64,000 nucleotides of DNA from positions 62,001 to 126,000 of the forward strand of contig NZ_FOOQ01000005.1 of the NCBI RefSeq assembly GCF_900113245.1, given 5' to 3'. The notes beneath the pieces are model-generated. The model saw only the letters and a program-made list of their open reading frames with translations. It did no database searches and was not told the DNA's origin. This document shows, piece by piece, positions 13,543 through 30,274 of the stretch. A program made the translations under genes and the position numbers. Position 1 is the first letter of the stretch. Every line of letters begins with the position of its first letter. This DNA comes from Halopelagius inordinatus (lineage in GTDB: Archaea > Halobacteriota > Halobacteria > Halobacteriales > Haloferacaceae).

Positions 13543-14406
13543 ATGACAGACGACACGGTACACTCGACGTGGGGCGATTGGCTCGTCACGGAGATAGCGG
13601 AGTCGGACCCCGACGGGGTCGCCGTCTGGTATCTCGGCTGTAACGGCTTCGTCCTCCGATCCGAGACGACGACGCTGTACGTCGATCCCTACTTCGGGGA
13701 CGGCGACCCGCCGAGACTCGTCCGGACGATTCCGGTGCCGATAGACCCGACCGCAGTCGCCGACTGCGACGCGGTGTTGGTCACGCACGAACACATAGAC
13801 CACATGCATCCGCCGTCGTACGGACCGCTACTCGACGACGGCGGTGACCTGTACGCGCCGAGTGCGTCGTACGACTCGCCGGATTACGACGGGGACCTGC
13901 GCGTCGGCGACGACAGAAGCGAGACCGTCTCGGTCGGTGACTCGTTCGCCGTCGGGGACTTCACCGTCCACGTTCGGGAGGCGAACGACGGCGACGCCAT
14001 CGAACCCGTCTCCTACGTCGTCGAACACGACGCCGGGACGTTCTTTCACCCCGGCGACAGCAAACCCACCTCGGCGTTCGAGTCCGTCGGCGAGGAGTTC
14101 GATATCGACGTCGGCGCTCTCGCGTTCGGGACCGTCGGTCGGATTCACTACCCGGAGGACGGCGAGACGCGACGCACCGAGTGGTACATGTCCGAGGGCG
14201 ACGTCGTCGAGGCGGCGAACGCGCTTCGACTCGACCGTCTGCTGCCCTCGCACTACGACATGTGGAAGGGCGTGGGCGGCGACCCGAAATCTCTCTTCGA
14301 GCACGCCGACTCCTACGAGTACCCGCGCACTCTGGAGGTCGTCCGCATCGGAGACAGAGTCGATTTGGGGTCTCCAGGCGTCGTCCCGCCCTCGACCCAT
14401 CGGTGA
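13543..14406 (+). CDS. Metallo-beta-lactamase-fold hydrolase, UlaG-like
   Basis: A 287-aa cytosolic metal hydrolase. It shows the motif THEHIDHMH after a Gly-rich strand (WYLGCNGFVL), a downstream FFHPGD, and a C-terminal LPSHYDMWKG. UlaG-type lactonases (L-ascorbate 6-phosphate) share this architecture, so a sugar-lactone hydrolase is plausible but not shown. It follows the CUT2 binding-protein gene by 45 nt and probably belongs to that operon. A 54-residue C-terminal fragment of a close paralog survives at 24512-24673. Confidence 0.85.
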   Translation: MTDDTVHSTWGDWLVTEIAESDPDGVAVWYLGCNGFVLRSETTTLYVDPYFGDGDPPRLVRTIPVPIDPTAVADCDAVLVTHEHIDHMHPPSYGPLLDDGGDLYAPSASYDSPDYDGDLRVGDDRSETVSVGDSFAVGDFTVHVREANDGDAIEPVSYVVEHDAGTFFHPGDSKPTSAFESVGEEFDIDVGALAFGTVGRIHYPEDGETRRTEWYMSEGDVVEAANALRLDRLLPSHYDMWKGVGGDPKSLFEHADSYEYPRTLEVVRIGDRVDLGSPGVVPPSTHR

Positions 14407-14433: not shown

Positions 14434-15516
14434 TCAGTCGAGTTCGACGGTCTCGCCCGACTCGGCCGCCTCGTAGACGGCTTTGATCGCTCTGATGTCG
14501 GTGAGGCCGTGTTCGCCGTCGGCGTGCGGTTCGGCGTCGGTCAAAAGACAGTGCGCGAAGTACTCGAACTCCTCTTGCATCTGGTCTCTCTGTTCGAACT
14601 CTATCTGCACGTCGGCGTCGCCGTGCGAGAGGTGGAGTTTGCGGTCGTCCCACGGGTAGAACGCCGGTTCGATGCGGAGTTGCCCCTCGGTGCCGGTCAC
14701 GCGGATGTGACTCGCCATGTGCGCGTTCTGACTGGCCGTACAGAGCGCGAACGTGTTGCCGGGGAAGTCGAGTTGGAACGCCGCGTGTTCGTCGGGCACG
14801 TCGTCGAACTCCGGTTGCACGGACGCGACCGACCCCCGAACGCGCAGGGGGTCGTCGTCCAAGAGGAACCGGGCGGTGTTCAAAGAGTAGATGCCGATGT
14901 CCATCGCCGCACATCCTCCCGAGAGGTCCCAGTCGAGTCGCCACTGGTCGGGGTTCGGGACCAACTCCAGAATCGGCTCGGTCATGTTCCCGTGGACGAA
15001 CACCGGATCGCCGACGTATCCCGCAGATATCAGCTCTTTGGCCCTCCGAACGGCCGGTTCGGTCTGCATCCGGTAGGCTATCATGAGCGTCGCGTCGTGT
15101 TCGTCGCACACCTCGACCATCCGCTCTGCGCGTTCGACGGTGGCCTCCATCGGCTTCTCACAGAGGACCGCCTTCCCGAGTTCGGCGGCCGTCTCGACGT
15201 ACTCTAAGTGACGCGCGTTCGGCGTCACCACGTAGACGGCGTCGTAGGCGTCGCTCGCGACGCCGTCGTGGAACTCGTCGTACGTGAGTGCGTGTTCGAC
15301 CGTCTCGGACTCGGACGCCACGGATTCTGCCTTTTCGCGGTCACCGCTGACGAGGACGGTCGTCTCGGAGAGGTCGCTCGCGACGACGGCCGGCATCGCT
15401 TGCTCGCGCGTCCACCATCCGACCCCGACCATCGCAAAGCGCACGGGGTCGTCCGTCTCGGTCACGTCCTGCCAGTCGCGCCGGTCGAAGTCGTCGGTCA
15501 GTGAGGATAGTTCCAT
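14434..15516 (-). CDS. gfo6: NADP-dependent D-xylose 1-dehydrogenase (Gfo6 type)
   Basis: A 360-aa Gfo/Idh/MocA enzyme that oxidises D-xylose to xylonolactone at the head of the haloarchaeal pentose pathway. It starts with a family-specific region (FDRRDWQ), then the Rossmann [14 protein letters not shown] (31-44), CEKPMEAT (Glu120-Lys121-Pro122) and the substrate-domain motif MDIGIYSLN. Length and wording agree closely with what I recall of characterised haloarchaeal Gfo6/XDH enzymes. It heads a long minus-strand run and has its own TATA-like element. Activity on other sugars cannot be excluded. Confidence 0.88.
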
Positions 15517-15585: not shown

Positions 15586-16368
15586 TCAGAATATCTGCCA
15601 CCCGCCGTCGACGTGGACGAGTTCGCCGGTGACGTAGCCCGCGTCGTCGCTCGCGAGATAGAGGTACGCCCCCGCGACGTCCGCTGGCGTCCCGGCGCGT
15701 CCGAGCGGAACCGGCTTTATGAGGTCGCCGCTTTCCGCTTTCTCGTGTGCCTCCTCGGACCAGCCGTCGGTGAACTCGGTGGCGATTTGGCCGGGAGCGA
15801 CGGCGTTGACGCGGATGCCGTGTTCGGCCAACTCCAAGGCGGCCCCGCGCGTTATCATCCGCACCGCGCCCTTCGAGGAGTCGTACTGCACTTGGTCGAA
15901 CTGCGCGGAGTTCGAACTTATCGACGCCGTGTTGAGGACGACGCCGGGGTCCTCTCGGTCCAGCATATCGTTTGCGGCCACCTGCGTCCCGAAGTAGACG
16001 CCTCTCGCGTTGACGGCGTGTATCGCGTCGAACTCCTCGGGGTCGAGTTCGAGGATGGAGCCGTTGACTATCAGTCCCGCGTTGTTGACCATCACGTCGA
16101 CGCCGCCGAACTCTCTGGCCGCCTCGACCAGAGCGCGGAGTTGTTCGCGGTCGGTCACGTCCGTCTCGACGAACTCGGCGGTGCCGCCGTCGTCGCGGAT
16201 GGCCTCGTGCGTCGGCGCGTCGGCGTCCTTCGGTTCCTCGTCTAAGTCGGCGACGACGACTGTCGCGCCCGCGTCGCCGAAGCGCAGGGCCACCTCTCGT
16301 CCGATACCGGAGGCACCGCCGGTCACGATTACGGTTTCGTCGGTGAAGTCGGGTCGTATTCGTCCCAT
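15586..16368 (-). CDS. Short-chain dehydrogenase/reductase (SDR)
   Basis: A classical SDR of 260 aa. It has TGGASGIGRE for cofactor binding, ADLDEE at the end of the second strand (suggesting NAD), NNAG, a Ser in TASISS, and YDSSK as YxxxK. The C-terminus ends in VDGGWQIF. It lies between gfo6 and uxuA on the same strand, so oxidation of a sugar acid (for example a fructuronate/mannonate-type step) or of a sugar is likely. The substrate is not determinable from sequence. Confidence 0.88.
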   Translation of the reverse strand: MGRIRPDFTDETVIVTGGASGIGREVALRFGDAGATVVVADLDEEPKDADAPTHEAIRDDGGTAEFVETDVTDREQLRALVEAAREFGGVDVMVNNAGLIVNGSILELDPEEFDAIHAVNARGVYFGTQVAANDMLDREDPGVVLNTASISSNSAQFDQVQYDSSKGAVRMITRGAALELAEHGIRVNAVAPGQIATEFTDGWSEEAHEKAESGDLIKPVPLGRAGTPADVAGAYLYLASDDAGYVTGELVHVDGGWQIF

Positions 16369-16439: not shown

Positions 16440-17393
16440 TCAGTCGGTGGCTTCCAGCAGACCCTTCATGTAGCCGACGGCGTAGAGACGTCCGAGCGTC
16501 ATGTACCCGGGGTTCGAGTTCTCCTCGCCCGCCATCGTCGGGACGTGGTCGGGGCGGGCGGGGCCGTCGAAGCCGATGTCCCGGTACGCCTCGATACAGG
16601 CGCGCATGTCCGTCGGCCCGTCGTCGTGCCACGTCTCGACGAACTTCCGCGCGTCCCCCTCCACGTCGCGGAAGTGGACGAAGTTGATTCGGTCGCCGAA
16701 GTGGCGGATGGTCTCGGGGACGTCGGCCCCCATCGCCGCGAAGTTACCCTGACAGAACGTGATGCCGTTGTACTCGCTTTCGTACATCTCCATCACGCGG
16801 TCGTAGTTCTCCGGCGAGGTGACGATGCGGTCCACGCCGCGGATGCTGTCTATCGGCGGGTCGTCGGGGTGAAGCGCGAGTTTCACGCCCGCCTCCTCGG
16901 CGACGGGAACCACCTCGTTCAGGAAGTGTTCGAGGGCGTCCCAGAGTCGTTCGGCGTCCACGGGCGCGATGTCTTGGTCGGGCGCGCCAGCCATCAGTTC
17001 GTCGTCGTACGCGGTGGTAACCGAGTCGCCGCGGATGGGGACGGCCGTAGAGGTGCGCGCCCACCGCTTGCCCGCCATCCAGTCGTAGGCGACGACGGGG
17101 ACGTCGAGTTCGCCGAGGTTCCGCAGGTACCGCTTGAACCGCGCTATCTCCTCGTCGCGGCCCTCCCGGCCGAGTCGGGTGTCGTCGGAGATGGGGACGC
17201 ACCCCTCTATGACGCCGAGTTCGAGGCCGTAGTCGCGGAACTCCTGCGTGAGTTCGAGGAGTTCGTCGTACCGCCACGGCCGCGACCCGTCACCGATTTC
17301 GAGCGAGTGGTAGACGGCCGTCTCGACGCCCATCTGTTTCGCCAAATCCCAACGTTCGTCGCGCTCTGCGGGCAGGATGAGTGCTGGCTCCAT
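16440..17393 (-). CDS. uxuA: D-mannonate dehydratase
   Basis: A xylose-isomerase-like TIM barrel enzyme of 317 aa that dehydrates D-mannonate to 2-keto-3-deoxy-D-gluconate in hexuronate catabolism. Metal-binding and catalytic segments of UxuA are visible: LALHPDDPP, ITFCQGNFAAMG, VHFRDVEGD and RPDHVPTM. It is shorter than the roughly 390-aa E. coli enzyme, as in many archaeal forms. ATG 17393 is preferred over a longer ORF to 17420 because a TATA element lies 24-33 nt upstream of it. The neighbouring acid-sugar genes support the role. Confidence 0.9.
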   Translation of the reverse strand: MEPALILPAERDERWDLAKQMGVETAVYHSLEIGDGSRPWRYDELLELTQEFRDYGLELGVIEGCVPISDDTRLGREGRDEEIARFKRYLRNLGELDVPVVAYDWMAGKRWARTSTAVPIRGDSVTTAYDDELMAGAPDQDIAPVDAERLWDALEHFLNEVVPVAEEAGVKLALHPDDPPIDSIRGVDRIVTSPENYDRVMEMYESEYNGITFCQGNFAAMGADVPETIRHFGDRINFVHFRDVEGDARKFVETWHDDGPTDMRACIEAYRDIGFDGPARPDHVPTMAGEENSNPGYMTLGRLYAVGYMKGLLEATD

Positions 17394-17416
17394 GCGCAGT
17401 CTCTCTCGCCGAACGG

Positions 17417-17426
17417 TCAAAAAACC
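17417..17426 (-). promoter_or_regulatory. TATA-like element of uxuA
   Basis: Minus-strand GGTTTTTTGA lies 24-33 nt before ATG 17393. The T-run may also help end the transcript of the upstream LarA-like gene. Confidence 0.45.
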
Positions 17427-17457: not shown

Positions 17458-18801
17458 TCACGCGCCCAGAACGTCCTCTCGAAGTTGGCCGTCCTCGAAG
17501 GCGACGGGTTCCGCCTCCTCGACGACGCGCAGGTCGTCGCGTTCGCGCGCCTCCGCGAGGAGGGCGGGCGACGCCTCGATTCGTTCGAGATGCATCGTGT
17601 CGCGGATGCGGACGACCCGCGGCGCGTCGAGACTCTCGACGCCGATGGTAGAGAGGCAGGTGACGATGCCGGCGCGGTCAGTCTCGACGGCCGGCGGAAC
17701 GTGCGCGCCCCGCAACGTACTCGCGGTAATCGTGTTCATCAGCATGTCGTGGAGGTCTATCTCCTCGAACAGGTCGGCGTGTATCACGTCGGCGGACCCC
17801 GTACCCGTGGCGTTGCCGTGAGAGGCGGGGGTGAGACCGCGAACGAAGATGCGCTTTACGTTCGGCGTCTCCGGTTCCGGTTCGGGACCGAACACCAGTC
17901 GTCCGATGACGTTCGTGTCCAACCCGGCCCCGGAGATGTCCTTTCCCATCCGGTCTACGACGAGGACGTCAACTTCGTCGAACGGTATCGTCGGCAGGTG
18001 GTCGTAGGCCCGTTCGAGGAGTTCGGCCTCCCTGTCGAGGAACCCGGAGGGGGGGACGCCTTCGAGGTGTGCGGTGTCGTCGTGTTCGTCTTCGACGATC
18101 GCGACGCCGCCCGCGACGGGCAGTTCCGCCACCAGAAGCGACGCGATTTCGGGGAGCATGTTGCGGAAACTCCAGTCGGTCGCCCACTCGTGGGCCGTCT
18201 TCGCGCCTCGCTGTTTCCCCATCCCGATGACGAGCATCTTCGAGAGGCCCGACTCCACGTCGCCCTGAAAGTCCGTGTGGGGTTTCACCCGGTTGACGGG
18301 GACGATGGCGTCCGCGGCGGCGGCGTTCGCGTCGGCGTGGACCGCCACGTCGCGGTCCGCCGTCCGCCCGACGACGACGGTGTCCATCGTCGCCCGTATC
18401 TCGCACCCGAGAGTCGATTCGGTCATGCCGAGAGACTCGAGCATCTCTCGTTGTCCCTCGGCGGTGGCCCCGCCGTGACTCCCCATCGCCGGGAAGACGA
18501 ACGGGTCGTACCCCCGTTCTCGGAGTCCGTCCACGACGCCGCCGACGATGTCGGGGATGTTCGCGATGCCCCGACTCCCCGCGCCGACGGCCACCTCGCC
18601 GCCGTCGGGAACGCCGTCCAACTCCAACGCGGAGACGGCCTCTGCCGCCCGGTCGCGCACCTCGTCGGTCGGAATCGGGTCAGTCTCCCACACCTGCTCT
18701 ATGACGCCCATCTCGGGGACGGACGTCTCCCCGCAGGCGTCCAGAATCGGTTCCTCCGCGACGGGCGTCGGCCCCGACCCGTCGTTGTCACTTCTTGCCA
18801 T
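17458..18801 (-). CDS. LarA-like nickel-pincer isomerase family protein (DUF2088)
   Basis: A 447-aa relative of lactate racemase LarA. It has GAGSRGIAN (Arg77), the AMGSHGGAT loop (His109) and NRVKPHTDFQG...SGLSKM (His175, Lys188), which match the arginine, histidine and lysine positions that bind substrate and the nickel-pincer cofactor in LarA. It probably racemises or epimerises a 2-hydroxy acid. It sits next to lactate-utilisation-type genes and four-carbon acid-sugar genes, so the substrate may be a sugar acid rather than lactate. The cofactor genes larB, larC and larE are not in this window. Confidence 0.78.
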   Translation of the reverse strand: MARSDNDGSGPTPVAEEPILDACGETSVPEMGVIEQVWETDPIPTDEVRDRAAEAVSALELDGVPDGGEVAVGAGSRGIANIPDIVGGVVDGLRERGYDPFVFPAMGSHGGATAEGQREMLESLGMTESTLGCEIRATMDTVVVGRTADRDVAVHADANAAAADAIVPVNRVKPHTDFQGDVESGLSKMLVIGMGKQRGAKTAHEWATDWSFRNMLPEIASLLVAELPVAGGVAIVEDEHDDTAHLEGVPPSGFLDREAELLERAYDHLPTIPFDEVDVLVVDRMGKDISGAGLDTNVIGRLVFGPEPEPETPNVKRIFVRGLTPASHGNATGTGSADVIHADLFEEIDLHDMLMNTITASTLRGAHVPPAVETDRAGIVTCLSTIGVESLDAPRVVRIRDTMHLERIEASPALLAEARERDDLRVVEEAEPVAFEDGQLREDVLGA

Positions 18802-18822
18802 GCCAAATCAAACCACTTCGCC

Positions 18823-18834
18823 GGATAAAAAAGC
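18823..18834 (-). promoter_or_regulatory. TATA-like element of the LarA-like gene
   Basis: Minus-strand GCTTTTTTATCC lies 22-33 nt before ATG 18801, suggesting a separate promoter for this gene inside the minus-strand run. Confidence 0.5.
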
Positions 18835-18876
18835 TGACGCCGCCGAGAGCGTCGCGCCCGCCCGTCCGCGCCGAAG

Positions 18877-21093
18877 TTACCCGTCGGGCGCGACGAGTTC
18901 GACGGGGTGGGTCACGTCGCGGGCGAACAGGTCGCCCATCTGTTCGGTGCAGGACGTTCCGCTGGCGACGAGGGTTCTGTCGTCGGTGTCTGCGAACTCC
19001 TCGCGCAGGTCCTCGCCGACGTCCATACTGAGTTCGTAGTACTCCGATTTGTAGCCGAAACTCCCCGCCATGCCGCAGCACTCCACGTCCGAAGACAGCA
19101 CGTCGTATCCGAGATTCGCGAGGACGGCTTCGGTGTACGCTTCGACGCCGAGCGTTCGCTGTTGGCAGTGACTGTGGTAGGCGACGCGTTCGGTGTCCGC
19201 GCCGGGCGACGAGAGGACGCCCGGATCGGCACCGTTCTCGACGAGGCCGTAGACGTACTCCATCACCTCGTAGGCGTTCTCGGAGAGTCGTTCGTGGGTC
19301 TCACCGTCCAGCAGTTTCTCGTACTCGCGGCGGAACGCGGCGAGGTCCGAGGGTTCGACGACGACCACGTCGAACCCCGCATCGAGGTAGGGGTCCAAGT
19401 CGGCGGCGACGGCGCGCGCGTTCTCTCTCGCCGTCTCGACCATCCCCTGCGAAAGGGGTGCGCGCCCGCTCTCTCTCGGCGTCGCGAGTTCCACGTGCGC
19501 GCCGAGGGCTTCGAGCGTTCGGACGGCCGCTTTTCCCCTCTCGACGAGGACGTAGTTCGTGTACGTGTCGGGGTAGAGAACGACGCTCCGGCCGGCGGTG
19601 GCGTCCGAGTGGGTTGCGCCGTCTCGCTTCTCGAACCAGTCGACGAGCGTCTCCCGGCGGAACTGGGGCAAGTCGCGGCGGGCGTCCACGCCGAGGAGTC
19701 GGTCCATCGCGGCCCGGACCGGTCCGAGGTTCGAGACGGCGTTCGAGAGCGGTGCCGTCGCGGAGCCGACTCTGGCGAGGGTTCCGAAGTTCCCGAAGAG
19801 ACGCTTCTGTACGTCCATCCCGCCGGGTTCGGCGTCGGGCGTGAGACCCTCCACGAGGAAGTCGAACTCGCTGGCGTCGCTCTGGCGGTTCAACCGGTCG
19901 CGGACGACGGTGTTTATCCACGGGATGTCTATCTTCACCGGGCAGGCGTTGACGCACCGCGAACAGCCCGTACAGAGGTCGTTGAACTCGTCTGCGCTCT
20001 CGAGTCCGTGGACGCCCGTCTCCCACCCGCCCGCGATACCGCCGGTGTACGTCTCCCCGCCGAAGGCGTGGCCGCCGACGTGTTGGAAGTTCCCGCAGGA
20101 GTTCGCACACGCCCCGCACCGGATGCAGTAGAGCGTCTCCTTCAGGTGGTCGTCCTCGCGCATGTCGAGTCTGCCGTTGTCCACGAGGACGAGGTGGAAA
20201 TCTCGCTCGTCCGCGCTTCCGAGCGGTTCGTCCGGGCTGTCGAAGTCGATTGTCGGCGACGACACGGGCGGCGTGAGCATCGTGACGTACTGCGCGATGG
20301 GTTGCCCCGTCGCCGCCTTGGCGATGAGTTCGACGAACGGTTGTAGTTCCTCGGCCCCCGGAATCAGTTTCTCCAGGCCCGCCACGGCGACGTGCGTGTC
20401 GGGAGTGACAGCCGACTTCCGAGCGTTGCCCTCGTTCGTCACGAGGGTGATGGTGCCGGAGTCCGCGAGGACGAAGTTCGCGCCCGTCATCCCCACGTCG
20501 GCGTCTCGGATGCGTTCGCCGAGGTAGTCGCGGGCAAACTCCGTGAGTTCCTGCGGCGTCTCGAACGGTTCCTCGGGGTCGAACGTCTCGTTGAACAGGC
20601 GGGCCACGTCCGCTCTCGATTTGTGAAGCGAGGGTCCGACGAGGTGAGAGGGCGCTTCGTCGGCCACCTGCAGGACGAACTCCCCGAGGTCCGTCTCCCA
20701 GACGTCCACGCCGCGAGATTCGAGGTGTTCGTTCACGTCCAACTCCTCGGTGGTCATCGACTTGCTCTTGACCAGCGTTTCGGCGTCCTCGTCCTCGACG
20801 ACCGTCTCTATGTAGCGGTTCGCGTCCGCCGCGTCGTCCGCGACGTACACCGTTCCGCCGTTCGCCTCGACGCTCTCGCGGACCCGTTCGACGAGTTCCG
20901 GGAGGCGTTCGATGGCGTCTTCCTTGATGGCCCGCGCCTCCGTCCGCAGGTCCTCGTACTCTTCGAATCCGGCGGTGACCTCGTATCTGTCGTCGTTGAA
21001 GACGGTGGTGTTGGCGTGGATGGCGTCGCCCTCCGTCTCCAACAGGTGGCGTATCTTCTGGGCCTTCCGACGGCGTTCTCTCTGTGCGCTCAT
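18877..21093 (-). CDS. Fused LutB-LutA iron-sulfur oxidoreductase
   Basis: A 738-aa protein that joins two subunits of the LutABC lactate-oxidising complex. Residues about 60-300 are the LUD domain. Two 4Fe-4S clusters follow: Cys323/326/329/333 (CIRCGACANSC) and Cys374/377/380/384 (CTGCSRCVNACP). The C-terminal third holds two CCG-type cysteine-rich modules ending in HSHCQQRTLG and ECCGMAGSFGY, as in LutA/GlpC. It would pass electrons from a 2-hydroxy acid to the quinone pool. Its start overlaps the stop of the LutC-like gene by four bases (ATGA). The substrate may be lactate or another hydroxy acid. Confidence 0.9.
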   Translation of the reverse strand: MSAQRERRRKAQKIRHLLETEGDAIHANTTVFNDDRYEVTAGFEEYEDLRTEARAIKEDAIERLPELVERVRESVEANGGTVYVADDAADANRYIETVVEDEDAETLVKSKSMTTEELDVNEHLESRGVDVWETDLGEFVLQVADEAPSHLVGPSLHKSRADVARLFNETFDPEEPFETPQELTEFARDYLGERIRDADVGMTGANFVLADSGTITLVTNEGNARKSAVTPDTHVAVAGLEKLIPGAEELQPFVELIAKAATGQPIAQYVTMLTPPVSSPTIDFDSPDEPLGSADERDFHLVLVDNGRLDMREDDHLKETLYCIRCGACANSCGNFQHVGGHAFGGETYTGGIAGGWETGVHGLESADEFNDLCTGCSRCVNACPVKIDIPWINTVVRDRLNRQSDASEFDFLVEGLTPDAEPGGMDVQKRLFGNFGTLARVGSATAPLSNAVSNLGPVRAAMDRLLGVDARRDLPQFRRETLVDWFEKRDGATHSDATAGRSVVLYPDTYTNYVLVERGKAAVRTLEALGAHVELATPRESGRAPLSQGMVETARENARAVAADLDPYLDAGFDVVVVEPSDLAAFRREYEKLLDGETHERLSENAYEVMEYVYGLVENGADPGVLSSPGADTERVAYHSHCQQRTLGVEAYTEAVLANLGYDVLSSDVECCGMAGSFGYKSEYYELSMDVGEDLREEFADTDDRTLVASGTSCTEQMGDLFARDVTHPVELVAPDG

Positions 21094-21596
21094 AGTCCCT
21101 CCACGAGAATCACGCGGACGGTGCTCGGTCCGTGGACGCCCTCGACCAACGCGCCCATGTCGCCGGTGGAACTGACGCCCGTGGCGAAGACGGCGGACTC
21201 CCCGCTCTCGAACCGGTCTGTGAGGTACGGGACGGACGACTCGACGTCCGCTTCCACGTCGCTCTCGCGGACGACGCCGACGTGCGTCGGCGGGTAGAGC
21301 GCGACGAACTCGTTTCCGGCGGCGTTCGACTCCACGACGAGCGTTCCGTACTCCGCGACGGCGCGTCCGACGGGCGTGACGCCCGTCTCCGCCTCGGTGA
21401 GGCGACGAGGGGTGAGGTCGGTCCGCACGGGCGTGTCGTCGAGCGAGACGCCATCGAACCCGAGTGGCGTCCCGACTGCCGGTTCCTCTACTGCGTCCGT
21501 GACGGCCGCTGCGAACCCGTCGGGGTCGGTTCGCGTCAGCGTCACGTCCAGATTCGAAAGCGACGACTCGAAGGCCGATACCGCGTCTGTGGACAT
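21090..21596 (-). CDS. LutC-like LUD domain protein
   Basis: A 168-aa LUD-domain protein, the small subunit of the LutABC-type complex. The domain motif TPVGRAVAEYGTLVV and the C-terminal VHGPSTVRVILVEG are visible. It is translated first in the pair: its last four bases overlap the start of the LutB-LutA fusion. Alone it has no known catalysis, so it is expected to work in that complex. Confidence 0.87.
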   Translation of the reverse strand: MSTDAVSAFESSLSNLDVTLTRTDPDGFAAAVTDAVEEPAVGTPLGFDGVSLDDTPVRTDLTPRRLTEAETGVTPVGRAVAEYGTLVVESNAAGNEFVALYPPTHVGVVRESDVEADVESSVPYLTDRFESGESAVFATGVSSTGDMGALVEGVHGPSTVRVILVEGL

Positions 21597-21665
21597 GGGT
21601 CACAGTTCCGTCACTACCGTGTTAACTCTTGCCGATACAGGCGCGGCCGAGATACCGCGCCGTCG

Positions 21666-22682
21666 CTACTTCGCGTCCTCTCGGCGGTTGTCCACCGCCG
21701 TCGCCGCCACTCTGATGGCGTCGACCATGCTCGCTTCGCTCGCGATACCCTCGCCCGCGATGTCGAAGGCGGTTCCGTGGTCGACGCTCGTGCGGACGAT
21801 GGGGAGGCCGACGGTCATGTTGACTCCACTCACGCCCCCGGACCCGTCGAACCCGAGCATCTTCAGCGGGATGTGTCCCTGGTCGTGGTACATCGAGACG
21901 ACGCAGTCGAAGTCCCCGCGCGCCGCGCGGACGTAGACGGTGTCCGGCGAGAGGGGTCCGTCGGCGTCGATACCCTCCTCGCGGGCGCGTTCGACCGCGG
22001 GCGCTATCTCCGCTTCGTCCTCGTCGCCGAGAAGTCCGCCGTCCCCGGCGTGGGGGTTCAACCCCGCGACGGCGACGCGCGGCGAGTCGAGACCGAGTTC
22101 GCGGAGGGCGTCGTCTGTCACTCGAATCGTGTCGAGGACGTTCTCGGTCGTCACGAGGTTGCAGGCGTCTCTGAGGGGGACGTGGGTGCTCACGTGGGTC
22201 ACGCGCAGGTCCTCCTCTATCAGCATCATCGAGTAGTTCTCGGTGTCGGTTCGCTCCGCGAGGAGGCCGGTGTGACCGGCGTGGTCGCTCCCCGCCATCC
22301 GCGTCGCCTGCTTGTTGATGGGGGCCGTCGCGATGGCGTCTACTTCGCCCGCGACGGCGAGTTCGATGGCGCGTTCGACGTACTCCAGACTCGCCTCTCC
22401 GTACTCCGCGCGCAACTCGCCGTGGACGAGTTCGTCCACGTTGTCGAGGTCCAACACCGAGAGCGTCGAGGGGTCGTCGTCCACGTCGCCGACCGAATCG
22501 ACCGTGCGCACGTCGAGAGAGGCGTCGCACACCTGGACGGCCGTCCGAATCGCGTCCGCGTCGCCGACGACGACGACTCGCGCGAACTCGGTTGCATCGC
22601 GGTACGCATCGACGGCGACTTCCGCGCCGACCCCCGCCGGGTCGCCCATCGTCACGGCGACGAGCGGTTTACTCGAAGTCAT
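21666..22682 (-). CDS. pdxA2: PdxA2-type 4-phospho-acid-sugar dehydrogenase
   Basis: A 338-aa member of the PdxA family. It has VAVTMGDPAGVG at the N-terminus, TAPINKQA, GHTGLLAE, GLNPHAGDGG and MYHDQGHIPLK, the last two carrying metal-binding histidines. True PdxA makes vitamin B6. PdxA2 enzymes paired with a DUF1537 kinase instead oxidise 4-phospho-threonate or erythronate. The start overlaps the end of the DUF1537 kinase gene by 14 nt, which favours the catabolic assignment. Confidence 0.88.
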   Translation of the reverse strand: MTSSKPLVAVTMGDPAGVGAEVAVDAYRDATEFARVVVVGDADAIRTAVQVCDASLDVRTVDSVGDVDDDPSTLSVLDLDNVDELVHGELRAEYGEASLEYVERAIELAVAGEVDAIATAPINKQATRMAGSDHAGHTGLLAERTDTENYSMMLIEEDLRVTHVSTHVPLRDACNLVTTENVLDTIRVTDDALRELGLDSPRVAVAGLNPHAGDGGLLGDEDEAEIAPAVERAREEGIDADGPLSPDTVYVRAARGDFDCVVSMYHDQGHIPLKMLGFDGSGGVSGVNMTVGLPIVRTSVDHGTAFDIAGEGIASEASMVDAIRVAATAVDNRREDAK

Positions 22683-23994
22683 CACGTCCCCCGAGACGGG
22701 CGGCGCACTTACGTATTGCCCCGGAACTGCCGAACGCGCCCGCCTTCGTGACCACCGGCGTCCCGTCGGCGACGCCGCCCGCGACGCGTCCGAGAGGGAT
22801 TCCCTCTTCGACCGACTCCCCGGTGAGGAGGACGCCCCTCGCGTCCAAGGCGTCGAACACGTCGGCGGCGACCGCACCGCCCGTAACGAAAAGCGACTCC
22901 GGCGAACTCCCGTCGGCCGCGTTCCCGCCACCGTCGTCTTCGCTCTCGCCGCCGCGCCACAGTCGCTCTACGGTCCCGGCCAACGCCTCGCCGACGCGCG
23001 CGCGCACCTCCGCGCCGTCCAGACCGAGTCGCCGTCCCGCCTCGGCCGCACGATTCGGGGCGTCCGGGTCCGGCGCGGAGACGAGTGCGGCGAGGCCGGA
23101 CCGCTTCAGGCGGGCTTCGCAGTCCGCCGCGGCGTCGTCGCTGGCCGTCGCGGGGGACTCCACGGCCGTCTCTACGTCGAGGGAGACGACCGACGCGTCG
23201 GGAAGGGCGCGAATCTGCTCGACCGTCGCGGGGTTCGTACTCCCGACGACGCAGAGGACGCTCCGCTCTCGTCCGGGGACGGACGGCGGGCCGTCCGCGG
23301 CGGGCGGCGGCGTCTCGACGTACCGCGCGAGGCCCGCACTCCCGACGTAGACGACGGAACAGTCCGCCCGTGCTCCTCCCGACGCCACCGCGTCGAGGTG
23401 GCGTTCGTTCGAGGCGTCGGCGACGACCACTGTTCGACCCTCCGCGGCCGTCGCTTCGAGGTCCGCGGCGACGGCGGCCGCACCGGCCGCGACGCGGTTC
23501 ACCGGGAGGCGGACGACCGGGAACGACGACGGCGCGAACCGCGTCGGGAGGTGCGATGTTTCGACCGGCTTGTCGGGGTCGTTCCCGGCGTCCGTCTCCG
23601 AGACGGGGACGCCGTCGACGAGGTGGTACCCCTCGACCGTCGTCCGTCCGTTGCGCGGTGAGGCGGGGGCGACGAGGGCGACGTCGGCACCGGTCGCGTT
23701 CACCGCGGCGTCCACTTCCGCGACCAGGTTCCCCCTGAGCGTCGAATCGACCTTCTTGTAGACGAACCCGGCGTCGCCGTCGGAAATCACGCGTTCGACC
23801 CGCACGGCGGCGTCCGTCGGGTCGGCGTACCGGGAGTCGGTGTCGACGACGCGAACGTCTGTCTGACTGCCCGCGTCGGTCGTCGATGCGTCGAACGTGG
23901 AGACGAGCGTCCGGAGGCCGCGAGCGGCGAACTCGTGGCCGGTGTCGGTCGCCCCGGTCAGGTCGTCCGCGACGACGAGGGCCGAGGGGTGCAT
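22669..23994 (-). CDS. DUF1537 four-carbon acid sugar kinase
   Basis: A 441-aa kinase of the DUF1537 (DtnK/OtnK/LtnK) family, known to phosphorylate four-carbon acid sugars such as threonate and erythronate. The N-terminal domain shows ADDLTGATDTG (9-19) and KKVDSTLRGN. The C-terminal nucleotide domain shows FVTGGAVAADVFDAL and VTKAGAFG. It is translationally coupled to the pdxA2 gene. No isomerase or epimerase partner of the bacterial Otn pathway is seen nearby, so the full route here is unclear. Confidence 0.88.
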   Translation of the reverse strand: MHPSALVVADDLTGATDTGHEFAARGLRTLVSTFDASTTDAGSQTDVRVVDTDSRYADPTDAAVRVERVISDGDAGFVYKKVDSTLRGNLVAEVDAAVNATGADVALVAPASPRNGRTTVEGYHLVDGVPVSETDAGNDPDKPVETSHLPTRFAPSSFPVVRLPVNRVAAGAAAVAADLEATAAEGRTVVVADASNERHLDAVASGGARADCSVVYVGSAGLARYVETPPPAADGPPSVPGRERSVLCVVGSTNPATVEQIRALPDASVVSLDVETAVESPATASDDAAADCEARLKRSGLAALVSAPDPDAPNRAAEAGRRLGLDGAEVRARVGEALAGTVERLWRGGESEDDGGGNAADGSSPESLFVTGGAVAADVFDALDARGVLLTGESVEEGIPLGRVAGGVADGTPVVTKAGAFGSSGAIRKCAARLGGRDDFE

Positions 23995-24014
23995 GTGACA
24001 GGGTTCCGCGAGTA

Positions 24015-24026
24015 GCGGTAAAAACC
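24015..24026 (-). promoter_or_regulatory. TATA-like element of the kinase-pdxA2 pair
   Basis: Minus-strand GGTTTTTACCGC begins 21 nt before ATG 23994. It lies just beyond the broken 3' end of the truncated cyclase gene. Confidence 0.55.
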
Positions 24027-24052
24027 TGTCTCGGAAGGACGCGATACTCCTT

Positions 24053-24520
24053 CGGCCGAACGAGGAGACGAACTTGCGACCCGTCTCGGCCGGCGTACGG
24101 TATCGGCGTGCAGACGACGTCGTAGCGCCCCGGTTCGACCGCGTCGAGGTTCGCTACGCCCTCGACGATACGGACGCCTCCGGGGAGGAGCGTTCGGTGA
24201 ACCACGTGGTCCGCGATAGCCGCGCCGGGAGCGCCGACGCCGAGAGCGTCTATCGCCACGCAGGCCACGTCGCGTTCGACGAGGTACTCCGCGGCGTCGC
24301 GCGACGGGTGGACGTACTCGTCGGTCGGACGCGGCGGATTGCCGCAGTCGAGGATTACGAAGTCGCCTCCCCGCAGTCCCCGTCGGTCGGCCTCCGATTC
24401 CATCGCTTCGCGCTCGATTTTCGTGCCGGGAGCGTGGTCGGTGAAGTCCAACACGACGCCCTCCGTCACCATCTCGTCGGGAGTGACTTCGTCCAACTCG
24501 CTCGCTTTCTCCCGTCTCAC
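24053..24520 (-). pseudogene. Truncated cyclase-family hydrolase remnant
   Basis: About 155 residues of a cyclase/kynurenine-formamidase-like protein survive: VVLDFTDHAPGTKIE, DYV-type segments, VACVAIDALGVGAPGA, DHVVHRTLLPGG and a C-terminal YDVVCTPIPYAGRDGS. The N-terminal third, with the metal motif HxGTHxDAPxH, is missing, and the frame runs without a stop into the promoter of the kinase gene. It is therefore a broken gene. Its middle part is a diverged direct repeat of 30410-30640. Confidence 0.8.
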
Positions 24521-25338: not shown

Positions 25339-26715
25339 ATGGGACGACATGACAAGGGTGACGGTATCAATCAACATAGACGTCGGTACCTACGGGCTGT
25401 CAGTGGGGCGGTTGGTGCGACAACGATAACCTCCCTCGCTGGCTGTTCCGGTAATTCTGACAGTGGGTCAAGTAACGGTGGAACGGGAACGACGAACGGA
25501 GGTGGGGAGGAGAACAGTTACGACAGGCCGATAGACAAGGCGTTCATGTCCCCTGACAGCCTAAAGATCGACCTCTGGAAAGCCTTCCGCAACGGTATGG
25601 AGGAGGCGGCCAACGACTTCGGCCTTTCCGCGAACGCACAAGATCACGGTGGTCAACTGAGCCAGCAGATATCCCAGATTGAGGGCGCCATCACCAGCGG
25701 TGCGGATATGGTCGCCGCGACCGCACCTAGCGACTCGGGCGTTCGATCGCTCGCGGAGACGGCCGTGAATAACGGCGTCCCATTCTTCGAATATTGGTCG
25801 ATGGGTAAGTGGCTGGTGCCGTCTTCCGTGGGCCCGGAGTTCGTCCAGTACCAGATTCCGGAGACGTACCATGCCGGCGCAATCCCCGCCAAAATCCTCT
25901 TCGAGGAGATGGGCGGTTCAGGAAACGTCGTCGTTATCCTCGGTCCGAAGGGACACATCGGTTCGTACCGGTACGAGGGCTTCAAGCAGGCCGCAAAGGA
26001 GTATCCCGACATCAACGTTCTGGCCCACCAGTACTCCGGCGGGTGGACCCGCCAGTTAGGCCGCGAAGTGATGTCGGCGTTCGTCTCGAACCACGGCGAC
26101 GACATCGACGGCGTCTACTGCAACAACGGCACGCTCGGACTCGGTGCGGCATCGATTCTCTCCGAGAACGACATGGCGATTCCGTTCACCGGATTCGACG
26201 GTGCACTCTCGAATATCGAATACATCCGCAACAACGGCCCGGATTCCGGTGAACCGTACCAGGTGCAGGAGCAGGCCGCCCCCCCGTTCTGGCAAGGCGG
26301 CTGGGCCGTCGCCAAGGCCTGGGACTGGCTCCATGGCTGGCGACCCCAGATACCGGAGCGCATGCTCTGGGTGCGGACGCTGACGGTTCTCAACCCCGAA
26401 CTTGACCAGTCAAAGTTCAGTGACCTCGACACCGAGTTCGCCACGCCGGAGAAGTATCTGTCCGTGGCGTACTCTGACGGCCACTCCCCGTACGATTGGA
26501 AGGCGATGTCAGTCCACGAGAGCGGTGACGACTGGGATCCCCAGCGTAGCCTCGCACCCATCCGCAAGTCCGAGTGGGAGCAGCTCAAATGGACGGAGGA
26601 CAACAAGCCGAACAACCTGGAGATTCCGGACGCCTACGACGACCAGGCCCTCTTCGACGAGGTCGAAGAGGACTACCAGCAGCGGAATCAGAACGGGCAG
26701 AACCCGTACCTATAA
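25339..26715 (+). CDS. CUT2 sugar-binding lipoprotein of the island
   Basis: A 458-aa extracellular binding protein. The leader has RRRYLRA and a lipobox LAGC (Cys36), then a Ser/Gly/Asn-rich linker. The fold matches RbsB-like proteins (AATAPSDSGVRSLAETAVNNGVP, GVYCNNGTLGLGAA). It is about 100 residues longer than the 12442 protein because of a Trp-rich C-terminal extension (GGWAVAKAWDWLHGW and beyond). ATG 25339 was chosen over a TTG ten codons upstream. ATPase and permease follow. The ligand is unknown. Confidence 0.9.
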   Translation: MGRHDKGDGINQHRRRYLRAVSGAVGATTITSLAGCSGNSDSGSSNGGTGTTNGGGEENSYDRPIDKAFMSPDSLKIDLWKAFRNGMEEAANDFGLSANAQDHGGQLSQQISQIEGAITSGADMVAATAPSDSGVRSLAETAVNNGVPFFEYWSMGKWLVPSSVGPEFVQYQIPETYHAGAIPAKILFEEMGGSGNVVVILGPKGHIGSYRYEGFKQAAKEYPDINVLAHQYSGGWTRQLGREVMSAFVSNHGDDIDGVYCNNGTLGLGAASILSENDMAIPFTGFDGALSNIEYIRNNGPDSGEPYQVQEQAAPPFWQGGWAVAKAWDWLHGWRPQIPERMLWVRTLTVLNPELDQSKFSDLDTEFATPEKYLSVAYSDGHSPYDWKAMSVHESGDDWDPQRSLAPIRKSEWEQLKWTEDNKPNNLEIPDAYDDQALFDEVEEDYQQRNQNGQNPYL

Positions 26716-26797
26716 ACGGAGTTATCGTGATTTTTAGTGATTACAGTCTGAGTACTGAACAACCGGCATTCGAAGCCAGATCGTTCCGATTCACGCC

Positions 26798-28381
26798 ATG
26801 AGCGCAAACACAGATCTCTCCGAACGCACTGTACAGGACTCGGCGGTCCGGTTCGAAGTTGAGAATATCCGAAAGGAGTTCACGAACGTCGTCGCACTAG
26901 ACGACGTTAACTTCGAGTTACGGACCGGTGAGGTCGTCGGACTCGTGGGCGAGAACGGAGCCGGGAAGAGCACCCTACTAAACATCCTCAGTGGTATCTA
27001 CCAGCAAGATCGGGGCCACATCTACGTCGACGGTGAGAGGGTGTCGATCACGAACCCCCGGGAGGCATCCCAACACGGCGTCGCCATCGTCCACCAGGAA
27101 CACAACATCATCCCGAACCTCTCGGGTTACGAGAACTTGTTCCTAGAGCAGTTCCCGGACTATTCGACCGCCGGCGTCCTCGACTCTAATACTCTCAAAC
27201 GCGAGGGCGCACAGATTCTAGATACGCTTGGGATCGACCTCGATCTGGAGAAACGCGTCTCGAACTACTCGTTCAGCGACCGGCAGATGCTGAGTATCGC
27301 GAAAGCGTTCACCGAGACGGTCCACACCGACCACCCCATAATCCTGCTCGACGAACCGACTGCGGGCCTCGAGGAAGACGGACGTGACCTTCTGTTCGAC
27401 CGTATCGAGGACCTCCGCGACCAGGCCTCGTTCGTGTTCGTCTCCCACGAACTCGACGAAGTCCTTGAAATCAGCGACCGCATCTACGTCCTTCGGGACG
27501 GCAAAGTCGTTAACCATCTCCAGCGGGGGGACGCCACCGAGGACAAACTCCAGCAGAGCATGGTCGGTCGCGAGGTCTCGGACGAGTACTATCAGGTCTC
27601 CGACCAGCGAGGCGTCGAGGGCAACGAGTCCGTCCTCACGGTGTCGAACCTCGGCAACGAGGGGCACTTCGAGGACGTCTCGTTCGACGTCCACGAGGGC
27701 GAGATATTCGGGATCTGTGGCGTGATGGGTAGCGGGAAGAGCGCCCTCGGCCGCGTGCTGAGCGGCGTTGACGCCGCGGACACCGGTGAACTCACCGTCG
27801 ACGGCACTCCCGTCGAGACGGGGTCCGTCCATCGGATGGTCAACCAAGGCGTCGGCTATGTCCCCAAGGAGCGCCAGTCCGAGGGAACATTGCTCTACCA
27901 ACCGTTGCGCGTCAACGTCTCGTTGCCGAGCATCGGAACCGACCTCGTCGCCGACAAGTTGCCTGGGCTGGGAACGGTCAACTGGCTTATCGACTTCGAG
28001 AAGGAAGACGAGATGGCAGAGGACGTGATCGAGCAACTCAACGTCAAGGCGCCCAGCATCGAGTCGCCGCTCATCCAACTCAGCGGTGGCAACCAGCAGA
28101 AAGTCGTCCTCGGGAAGAACCTCCAGCGCGAGGTATCGGTCCTCGTCATGGATAACGTGACCCGCGGTATCGACGTCGGCGCCAAAGAAGAAGTGTACCG
28201 CATCCTTCGTCAACTCGCCGACGACGGCGTGTCGATGGTCTTCATCGCGGACGAACTCCCGGAACTCATCGGGATGAGCAATCGCATCGGCGTGATGCAC
28301 GAGGGCGAGATGGTCGAGATCGTTGACGCACCGCCCGATGACAAACCGACGGAATCGGAAATAATCAAAAAGATGATCTAA
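26798..28381 (+). CDS. CUT2 ABC transporter double ATPase with one degenerate site
   Basis: A 527-aa RbsA/MglA-like ATPase with two nucleotide-binding domains. Domain 1 has Walker A GENGAGKST, Walker B IILLDEPT and the H-loop VSHE, but its signature reads YSFSDRQ. Domain 2 has GVMGSGKSA and an intact signature LSGGNQQ, but Walker B reads VLVMDN (catalytic Glu replaced by Asn) and the switch His is missing (FIADE). One composite ATP site should thus work and the other be degenerate. It ends 1 nt before the permease start. Confidence 0.92.
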   Translation: MSANTDLSERTVQDSAVRFEVENIRKEFTNVVALDDVNFELRTGEVVGLVGENGAGKSTLLNILSGIYQQDRGHIYVDGERVSITNPREASQHGVAIVHQEHNIIPNLSGYENLFLEQFPDYSTAGVLDSNTLKREGAQILDTLGIDLDLEKRVSNYSFSDRQMLSIAKAFTETVHTDHPIILLDEPTAGLEEDGRDLLFDRIEDLRDQASFVFVSHELDEVLEISDRIYVLRDGKVVNHLQRGDATEDKLQQSMVGREVSDEYYQVSDQRGVEGNESVLTVSNLGNEGHFEDVSFDVHEGEIFGICGVMGSGKSALGRVLSGVDAADTGELTVDGTPVETGSVHRMVNQGVGYVPKERQSEGTLLYQPLRVNVSLPSIGTDLVADKLPGLGTVNWLIDFEKEDEMAEDVIEQLNVKAPSIESPLIQLSGGNQQKVVLGKNLQREVSVLVMDNVTRGIDVGAKEEVYRILRQLADDGVSMVFIADELPELIGMSNRIGVMHEGEMVEIVDAPPDDKPTESEIIKKMI

Positions 28382-28382
28382 C

Positions 28383-29390
28383 ATGACCGGAGAAACCTCA
28401 GACAACCCAGTCGCCGATTGGCTCGGAGAGTACCGACAGAACCGCTCGTCCATGGACATCCTCGTAGACTTGGGTCCGTTCCTGATGCTGTTGATACTGA
28501 TGGGTATCTTCACAATCACGTCGGATGTGTTCTTGACCTACAACAACCTGGTCGGGAACGTGATGATGAACAGCATGATTCTGCTGCTTGTCGCCCTCGC
28601 CGGGACGTTCCCCATCCTCCAGCAGAGTATCGACCTGTCCGTCGCCTCTATCGTCTCGCTGTCGGGCGTCGTCACTGCGTTACTTATCAACGATTATCAG
28701 CTTGGCCTGCTCGCTCTCTTGGTGGGCGTCCTCGCGGGGACGGGCGTCGGCTTGTTGAACGGCGTCGTGTTCGCGAAGGGAAAGATTCCCTCCTTCCTCG
28801 TCACGTTGGGTTCGCTGTCCATCTTCAGTGGATCGGCCCTGTTGATGACCGGTGGCTACTCGGTACCGTTTAACGCATCGGGTATCAGACAGATTGCCAT
28901 CGGTAACACCATCCCCAATGTCCCCAACCTTGTCATCTGGGGTCTGGTTGTCTACGTGTTGGTGTCGCTGCTAGCGTGGAAGACAACGTTCGGGCGATAC
29001 ACGTACGCCCTTGGCGAGAACGAGCGGGTTGCCGACTTCTCGGGCGTGGACGTCGACCGGTACAAGATCGGCGCGTTCGTCGTCTCGGGGACGCTCTGTG
29101 GTCTTGCCGGCGTCCTGCTGACCGCACGCATCTCCTCGGCGACGCCGGGCATGGGTGAGGGTCTGCTCCTCCAGTCTATCGCGGCCATCGTGATGGGCGG
29201 CACCGCGCTGACCGGCGGTGTCGGCGGTCCGCACCGGACGATTCTCGGCGTGATGGTCATCGGCGTGCTGACCAACGGGATGAACCTGCTGGGCATCCAG
29301 TCGTTTGTTCAAGAGATCATCCTCGGGTTCGTCGTCATCTTCGCTGTCGCGATGTCGATGGACCGTGACAAGATCGAAATCGTGAAATGA
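28383..29390 (+). CDS. CUT2 sugar ABC transporter permease of the island
   Basis: A 335-aa polytopic membrane protein of the RbsC type, with motifs LQQSIDLSVASIVSLSG, GKIPSFLVTLGSL, FGRYTYALGENERVADFSGVD and the late AIVMGGTALTGGVGG. It pairs with the double ATPase just upstream and the lipoprotein at 25339. It is followed after 164 nt by the intact cyclase gene in the same direction. Confidence 0.93.
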   Translation: MTGETSDNPVADWLGEYRQNRSSMDILVDLGPFLMLLILMGIFTITSDVFLTYNNLVGNVMMNSMILLLVALAGTFPILQQSIDLSVASIVSLSGVVTALLINDYQLGLLALLVGVLAGTGVGLLNGVVFAKGKIPSFLVTLGSLSIFSGSALLMTGGYSVPFNASGIRQIAIGNTIPNVPNLVIWGLVVYVLVSLLAWKTTFGRYTYALGENERVADFSGVDVDRYKIGAFVVSGTLCGLAGVLLTARISSATPGMGEGLLLQSIAAIVMGGTALTGGVGGPHRTILGVMVIGVLTNGMNLLGIQSFVQEIILGFVVIFAVAMSMDRDKIEIVK

Positions 29391-29554: not shown

Positions 29555-30274
29555 ATGAGCGACGACAACAAGCTATCGAATGCGCTCAGCGCGCTCGTCG
29601 ATAGTGAGGTCGTTGACCTCTCCCAGACACTCGAAGAGGGAATGCCCGTCGTTCCCACCCACGCCCGTTACGGCCATACACTGTATGAATCCTACGAACA
29701 GGGGGATGTTGCCTGCCATTATCGGTTGACGCTCGGTGAACACACCGGGACGCACATGGATGCCCCGCTCCACTTTATCGCAGAGGGCGACGCACACAAC
29801 GATATCGCGTCTATCGATCTCGACAGCCTCATCGGTCGGGCGGCAACCATCGATGTCGCAGATATCGAGCGAAATGCCACCGTCCCCGTCGAACGCATCG
29901 AGCAGTGGGAAACAAAACATGGAGATCTCAGGGAGGATGATCGCGTCCTCTTCCGGTTTGGCTGGGATCGCCACTGGGCCACTGGCTCTGACGGCACCCA
30001 GTACATGGCCGACTGGCCAGGACTCTCCGAGAAAGCGGCCGAATATCTCACCGATACTGGAATCGCCCTCGTCGGCTGTGACACTGCCGCTATCGATGTG
30101 GCACACGACGAGTCGTTCCCCGCGCACTACGAACTACTAGGGAACGAGACATACATCGTAGAGAATCTCACGAGTCTCGACGAACTTCCACCGTTCTCCT
30201 TGCTGGTCACCCTCCCACTCAAGATTGAGGATGGCTCCGGATCACCCATCCGGGCCGTCGCCATCGTCGACTAA
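29555..30274 (+). CDS. Cyclase/kynurenine formamidase-like metal hydrolase
   Basis: A complete 239-aa cyclase-family protein. It has the metal motif HTGTHMDAPLHF near residue 65, FRFGWDRHW, a central GCDTAAIDVAH, HYELLGNE and the C-terminal LPLKIEDGSGSPIRAVAI. These enzymes hydrolyse amides or lactones, or dehydrate cyclic polyols. Next to a sugar transporter, a role on a sugar or lactone is likelier than tryptophan breakdown. Two broken relatives on the other strand flank this block, at 24053 and 30410. Confidence 0.87.
   Translation: MSDDNKLSNALSALVDSEVVDLSQTLEEGMPVVPTHARYGHTLYESYEQGDVACHYRLTLGEHTGTHMDAPLHFIAEGDAHNDIASIDLDSLIGRAATIDVADIERNATVPVERIEQWETKHGDLREDDRVLFRFGWDRHWATGSDGTQYMADWPGLSEKAAEYLTDTGIALVGCDTAAIDVAHDESFPAHYELLGNETYIVENLTSLDELPPFSLLVTLPLKIEDGSGSPIRAVAIVD

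Follow-up and report, generated by a model that had tools for sequence, protein, structure and literature searches.

The nearest described counterparts of the genes considered here are the D-threonate route of the DUF1537 kinase DtnK and the dehydrogenase PdxA2, the LutABC/LdhH complex of L-lactate oxidation, the mannonate dehydratase UxuA, and the D-gluconate 2-epimerase GntE from the LarA superfamily. A 2024 study, cited in PMC12540250, is also said to have described alternative pathways for threonate and erythronate. In a stretch of 64,000 nucleotides from the haloarchaeon Halopelagius inordinatus (contig NZ_FOOQ01000005.1, positions 62,001 to 126,000; "the window" hereafter), members of these families lie in a single run of eight co-directional genes on the minus strand, with intergenic distances of no more than 75 bp by gene calls (Table 1). 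The reading that we favour, and to which we give an even chance, takes the run for a sugar-acid operon in which a four-carbon-acid module is combined with a LarA-UxuA-Lut module and the LarA-type protein would be a nickel-dependent enzyme that epimerises aldonic acids at C2. The basis for these two modules is gene content and order, family membership, residues, fold, cofactor genes and recurrent neighbourhoods.

From upstream to downstream the run comprises a DUF1537 kinase, PdxA, LutC, a LutB/LutA fusion, a LarA-type, a UxuA-type, an SDR and a Gfo6 gene, at intergenic distances of 19, 69, -4, 75, 64, 71 and 69 bp; as the gaps are so short, an operon is plausible. The original prediction, made from the sequence alone, had seen LarA-type, Lut, PdxA and DUF1537 kinase genes pointing the same way beside a mannonate dehydratase-type gene, and every one of them was recovered there on the minus strand. 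Its Lut complex stands insofar as LutC, LutB and LutA parts are all found, as LUD domains and a CCG domain; a separate LutA gene is lacking, the CCG domain being fused to LutB.

Association of the kinase, PdxA and the LarA-type protein (LarA22 hereafter, after group 22 of its family model) recurs across haloarchaea. Among 292 haloarchaeal genomes the kinase was found in 45 and PdxA in 43, both together in 37, and LarA22 is present in 40 of the 45 kinase-bearing genomes. These tallies, as well as a survey of PdxA loci, 47 in all (46 fetched plus that in the window), were sampled independently of LarA, and neighbourhoods were counted with tblastn because our own codon-based gene calls in the relatives missed some LarA genes. 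A DUF1537 kinase lies within 500 bp at 39/47 PdxA loci. LarA22 in turn lies within 6 kb of 21 of these 39 kinase-PdxA pairs, 19 times on the same strand, compared with none of the 8 PdxA loci that have no kinase, which is why we regard the link as conserved. Rough arithmetic, taking LarA to occur about twice in 3.8 Mb, gives a chance expectation below 1% per pair, and the proximity exceeds chance. Conserved co-occurrence in haloarchaea, which had been put forward as a check on the original prediction, is thus observed for these genes. In Natronococcus sp. CG52 the RefSeq annotation itself lists a four-carbon acid sugar kinase, pdxA and a "lactate racemase domain-containing protein", the genes overlapping by 14 bases at one junction and standing 2 bases apart at the other, while in Halarchaeum acidiphilum (L015) the order is kinase-PdxA-KdgT-LarA22 with a NicO nickel transporter near. 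Permeases of the GntP or KdgT type occur within 6 kb of 9/39 pairs, and a UxuA-type gene adjoins the kinase-PdxA-LarA triad also in G160 (L165) and G274 (L170). The four-way combination with Lut genes as direct neighbours did not generalise in the same way: it was seen only in the window, its one same-genus relative (L128, kinase-PdxA-LutC-LutB/A-LarA-UxuA-SDR) and one member of another family (L133, LarA-kinase-PdxA-LutC-LutB/A).

With the described DtnK/PdxA2 route the run shares the two enzyme families, yet neither window protein reaches its NCBIfam equivalog cut-off. The kinase reaches 237 bits with the D-threonate kinase model (cut-off 450) and 110 bits with the 3-oxo-tetronate kinase model, and as 237 bits falls short of 450, it was filed as a DUF1537 kinase rather than as DtnK. 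PdxA, scored on a longer frame (21666-22931), reaches 312 bits with the D-threonate 4-phosphate dehydrogenase model (cut-off 583); it was not filed as an equivalog, and by its context it would work like PdxA2. In the literature searched, no LarA-type isomerase was found as a member of the described route. The absence of OtnI and OtnC, used earlier as an argument, says little, because the PdxA2 route is not known to need either of them. A role of PdxA in vitamin B6 synthesis was rejected: PdxA occurs in just 43/292 genomes, mainly beside the kinase, and archaea have the DXP-I pathway only (PMC9997740). The same genome (G000) holds a second DUF1537 kinase (C2:660674-661414), on a contig with no PdxA match.

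The LarA-like label turned out to be right, though not through Pfam Lar_N, which had no match in the genome, this protein included; it comes from NCBIfam NF052515 ("nickel pincer cofactor-dependent isomerase, group 22"), where the score of 497 bits lies above the cut-off of 400. Relatives in one subclade of the LarA22 tree (subclade B, see below) do exceed the Lar_N cut-off, with up to 36 bits against 23.3, and group 22 is therefore tied to the LarA superfamily by sequence as well. A phmmer search with the single window protein gave no match in the PDB, and a profile of 44 LarA22 relatives gave only two irrelevant ones (E about 0.6); after this failure of direct matching, residues were mapped through profile comparison with canonical haloarchaeal LarA and through a fold search. 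R77, H109, H175, K188 and H204 are invariant among 44 LarA22 sequences; in canonical haloarchaeal LarA their counterparts are R, H, H, K and H. LarA22 keeps both catalytic histidines, the lysine that links the cofactor, the nickel-ligand histidine and the arginine, residues whose roles are given in passages of PMC7583248 (Asp72 among them) and PMC11770544. In a Foldseek search of the PDB with the AlphaFold model (pLDDT 91), 17/17 matches at E<=0.001 were LarA-family chains. Judged by sequence and model, the protein is probably a nickel-cofactor isomerase.

Most haloarchaeal rows have T, then D or N, at the two positions after the second catalytic histidine, a pair that fits neither the F,F of lactate racemases nor the E,V of gluconate epimerases as set out in passages of PMC11770544. 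The pair is polar, as would be expected for a polyhydroxy substrate. GntE resembles group 22 in its superfamily, its sugar-acid context and an adjoining hexonate or uronate enzyme, but it has E,V after the catalytic histidine where group 22 does not, the haloarchaeal rows having T and D/N (passages of PMC11770544).

Genes for the nickel-pincer nucleotide (NPN) cofactor, larB, larC and larE, had been noted as absent, which holds for the run only: LarE (C1:169250-170026), LarB (C1:175111-175746) and LarC (C2:558373-559713) are all encoded elsewhere in the genome, so that the idea of a missing cofactor was rejected. LarA22 is present in 129/292 haloarchaeal genomes and a LarC match in 245/292; LarC matches were seen in 127/129 genomes with LarA22 against 118/163 without (tallied by eye from two tables; Fisher p 5e-11, uncorrected for kinship). 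LarB, LarE and Lar_N were scanned in 60 hand-picked genomes, 33 with LarA22 and 27 without, of which 2/33 (G094, G234) and 7/27 had been chosen for the absence of a LarC match; a further set of 40 was likewise hand-picked. A LarB match plus LarE above cut-off was found in 32 of the 33 chosen LarA22 genomes, the exception being G094, and in G234 (L182) LarA22, LarB and LarE are adjacent. Bacterial LarA22 relatives (36-40% identity) were found on plasmids, with LarC alongside in Pseudosulfitobacter and Sulfitobacter and LarB plus LarC in Loktanella; a Rubrobacter copy adjoins mandelate-racemase-type and SDR genes and has no lar genes within 6 kb. As a separate observation, 11 of the 48 LarB-bearing genomes among the 60 contain no LarA22 and no strong canonical LarA, and an NPN client may still be undiscovered in them.

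Genomes with larB, larE and larC but no larA make up about 15% of those analysed in PMC11796402, and a passage of PMC8305020 leaves unsettled whether Haloferax volcanii has an enzyme, unnamed there, with the nickel-pincer cofactor made by larBCE. Group 22, missed by the Pfam LarA model in this genome, is on its sequence features a good candidate for such a larBCE client in haloarchaea. Nothing in the literature searched combined haloarchaea with LarA and racemase, or Haloferax with threonate; among the matches listed, LarA and threonate came together in PMC11770544 only, and DUF1537 and LarA in none.

In the sugar-acid operon that we favour, the kinase of the first module would put a phosphate on C4 of a four-carbon acid, and PdxA2 would oxidise and decarboxylate the phosphorylated acid to dihydroxyacetone phosphate. 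The second module (LutC, LutB/A, LarA22 and the UxuA-type enzyme) would act on aldonic acids: LarA, loaded with NPN from the genome's own LarB, LarE and LarC, would flip C2 of a polyhydroxy acid by a hidden hydride transfer, thereby turning an unusable epimer into one accepted by the dehydratase or the kinase, and Lut would oxidise a short 2-hydroxy acid. The action of LarA at C2 of an aldonate, the choice of aldonate and the Lut substrate are what we infer; the earlier suggestion of a hydroxy-acid end product that Lut would clear away is a guess. LarA enzymes are known to epimerise D-gluconate/D-mannonate and 4-deoxy-threonate/erythronate, while the substrate-table passages of the same paper (PMC11770544) do not list true threonate or erythronate. 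More tentatively, the haloarchaeal LarA22 proteins may be clients of the haloarchaeal larBCE, one subclade being a nickel-dependent erythronate/threonate 2-epimerase that would open both C2 epimers of a four-carbon acid to breakdown by the DUF1537 kinase and PdxA2; in the window a member of a second subclade, in an operon with Lut and the UxuA-type gene, would do the same job. This extension we consider possible, and on balance more doubtful than convincing. The recurrent kinase-PdxA-LarA operon gives a concrete, assayable substrate guess for LarA22. If the guess is true, the substrates of LarA would be extended by four-carbon polyhydroxy acids, and an erythronate/threonate 2-epimerase would amount to a nickel branch of four-carbon-acid catabolism. 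The link between isomerase, kinase and dehydrogenase in many related species points to a candidate metabolic route.

Several observations weigh against this reading. In a quick tree of 129 LarA22 rows the haloarchaeal ones fall into subclades A (52), B (26) and C (42); the other 9 rows are bacterial. A kinase or PdxA is near in 21/26 rows of B, 3/52 of A and 0/42 of C, with at least six changes on the tree; as the rows of loci L128-L173 were fetched for surrounding PdxA, such fractions are not population frequencies. The window protein belongs to A and not to the kinase-tied B, and its nearest rows have UxuA and Lut as neighbours more often than the kinase, so that a LarA feeding the kinase is not supported in the form first proposed. 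Nor do kinase and PdxA always come with LarA, since 18/39 pairs have none within 6 kb; three Haloferax genomes are among these, with one kinase-PdxA pair about 12 kb from LarA. The position of LarA Asp72 is an invariant serine (Ser76) in LarA22, at a profile alignment probability of 47%. Since fold, curated model and the remaining residues all agree with LarA membership, the serine was not taken to exclude it, yet on sequence grounds it lowers confidence in the cofactor. In the Foldseek matches the TM-scores reach only modest values, 0.40-0.57, at an rmsd of 4.4-11.1. G094 (L183) has a strong LarA22 and no LarB, LarC or LarE match above cut-off, by which either the function was lost or the cofactor comes from another source. 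By its type the adjoining transporter is one for monosaccharides and not an acid importer. Finally, PMC7583248 cautions in one passage that the substrate of a LarA enzyme cannot always be read from its genomic context.

The UxuA-type neighbour opens a different, though doubtful, explanation in which LarA would convert D-gluconate to D-mannonate (or act on another hexonate pair), UxuA would dehydrate the product to 2-keto-3-deoxygluconate, and kinase and PdxA would serve a separate four-carbon substrate. In the seven tree rows around the window protein UxuA is near in 6/7, Lut in 5/7 and kinase-PdxA in 2/7, and a 73% identical gene at L020, which was matched as two pieces and has a long, poorly placed branch, adjoins UxuA too. 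The window protein shares family and key residues with the mannonate dehydratase UxuA: those of its residues that align with PDB 3ban, which we take to be the metal and catalytic residues, are retained. It differs in that, with 317 aa, it stays below the cut-off of the uxuA equivalog TIGR00695 (166 bits against 199.55), although above that of the mannonate dehydratase subfamily NF003027 (PRK03906; 228 against 191). LarA-type gluconate 2-epimerases are known (passages of PMC7583248), and the mannonate dehydratase of haloarchaea has been discussed for glucuronate or mannose (passages of PMC3102087). Bacterial LarA22 relatives adjoin altronate dehydratase or glucuronate isomerase, those of Roseobacteraceae lying directly after altronate dehydratase and that of Paenibacillus in the order uxaC-LarA-SDR-larE-larB-larC. 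Nevertheless, UxuA-type genes of this kind stand away from LarA22 in many genomes, and the recurrent kinase-PdxA-LarA link would be left unexplained for the window operon.

Alternatively, LarA could partner Lut, racemising a short 2-hydroxy acid such as lactate or glycerate to make both forms available to an L-specific Lut oxidase, with kinase and PdxA merely co-transcribed, which we hold to be unlikely. With LutABC/LdhH the window proteins have LUD and Fe-S/CCG domains in common, whereas here LutB and LutA are fused and the fusion scores below the equivalog cut-offs (TIGR00273, 333 bits against 444.8; LdhH model, 439 against 800). Lut lies within 6 kb of LarA22 in 14/129 rows spread over all three subclades, requiring at least five changes on the tree; on Haloferax gibbonsii pHG3, LutC-LutBA stands opposite LarA22, and a glycerate 2-kinase is near LarA22 in 12/129 rows. 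Lactate and glycerate are racemised by LarA enzymes (passages of PMC11770544), and deletion of LudBC in Haloferax volcanii hampers growth on rhamnose, a lactate source (passages of PMC8305020). Yet the haloarchaeal T and D/N differ from the F,F that PMC11770544 gives for lactate racemases, the nearest rows hold UxuA oftener than Lut, and the bacterial relatives adjoin aldonate or uronate enzymes. It is very improbable that group 22 is instead a DUF362-like protein of other function: Pfam gives the window protein this name by a marginal match (25.6 bits, cut-off 24), RefSeq often does likewise, and Ser76 and G094 fit such a case, but the catalytic and cofactor-linking residues are invariant in a LarA fold, cofactor genes are adjacent in G234 and bacterial relatives, and subclade-B members pass Lar_N.

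Table 1. Genes of the sugar-acid run and its flanks, in window positions.
Feature	Position	Strand	Evidence
DUF1537 four-carbon acid sugar kinase	22669..23994	-	PF07005 185 bits, PF17042 77 bits, both above cut-off
PdxA-type dehydrogenase, read as PdxA2 (4-phospho-four-carbon-acid dehydrogenase)	21666..22649	-	TIGR00557 365 bits, cut-off 290
LutC-type LUD-domain protein	21090..21596	-	PF02589 44.9 bits, cut-off 22.6
LutB fused to LutA-type CCG domain (LdhH-like)	18877..21093	-	PF02589 125.5 bits, Fer4_8, CCG
LarA-superfamily isomerase (predicted), NPN group 22	17458..18801	-	NF052515 497 bits, cut-off 400
UxuA-type (mannonate dehydratase family) enzyme	16440..17393	-	PF03786 278 bits, scored on frame 16440-17420
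SDR oxidoreductase	15586..16368	-	NF005559 245 bits, cut-off 215
Gfo6-type sugar dehydrogenase (D-xylose 1-dehydrogenase family)	14434..15516	-	NF041392 572 bits, cut-off 350
MBL-fold hydrolase, possible sugar lactonase	13543..14406	+	PF12706 48.8 bits; convergent neighbour
Divergent RbsA-type (CUT2) ABC transporter	25546..29390	+	Binding protein 25546-26715, ATPase 26798-28381, permease 28383-29390

Downstream of the run, the convergent MBL-fold hydrolase might belong to the route, a membership that we only infer. Before the kinase sits the divergent RbsA-type transporter, whose binding protein and ATPase were identified by family models; in L128 it lies beside the kinase in identical divergent order, with 46/58/68% identity. 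No Rfam families were found between window positions 12000 and 31000. Immediately upstream of the kinase, at 24000-24520 on the minus strand, there is a PF04199 cyclase remnant (profile 42-140 of 142) without an intact frame, which was set aside as a member of the route; BLAST against the intact cyclases of the window and L128 gave no match at E 1e-3. Another PF04199 cyclase, this one intact, is encoded at 29555-30274 on the plus strand, and in L128 a cyclase-like gene is found downstream of the SDR gene.

Group 22 itself is found in further settings. The genome holds two more LarA22 genes (C5:49037-50206 and C6:84049-85227), one of them about 12 kb before the start of the window; the C5 copy (L174) falls into subclade B, yet has no kinase or PdxA near. 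At L006, L007, L008, L032, L221 and L223 a glycerate 2-kinase (DUF4147/MOFRL) adjoins the subclade-A LarA22, and the glycerate 2-kinase neighbours make a glycerate racemase context possible. Subclade C (rows L188-L247) often lies near genes for a mandelate-racemase-type dehydratase and an FAH hydrolase, a third sugar-acid context.

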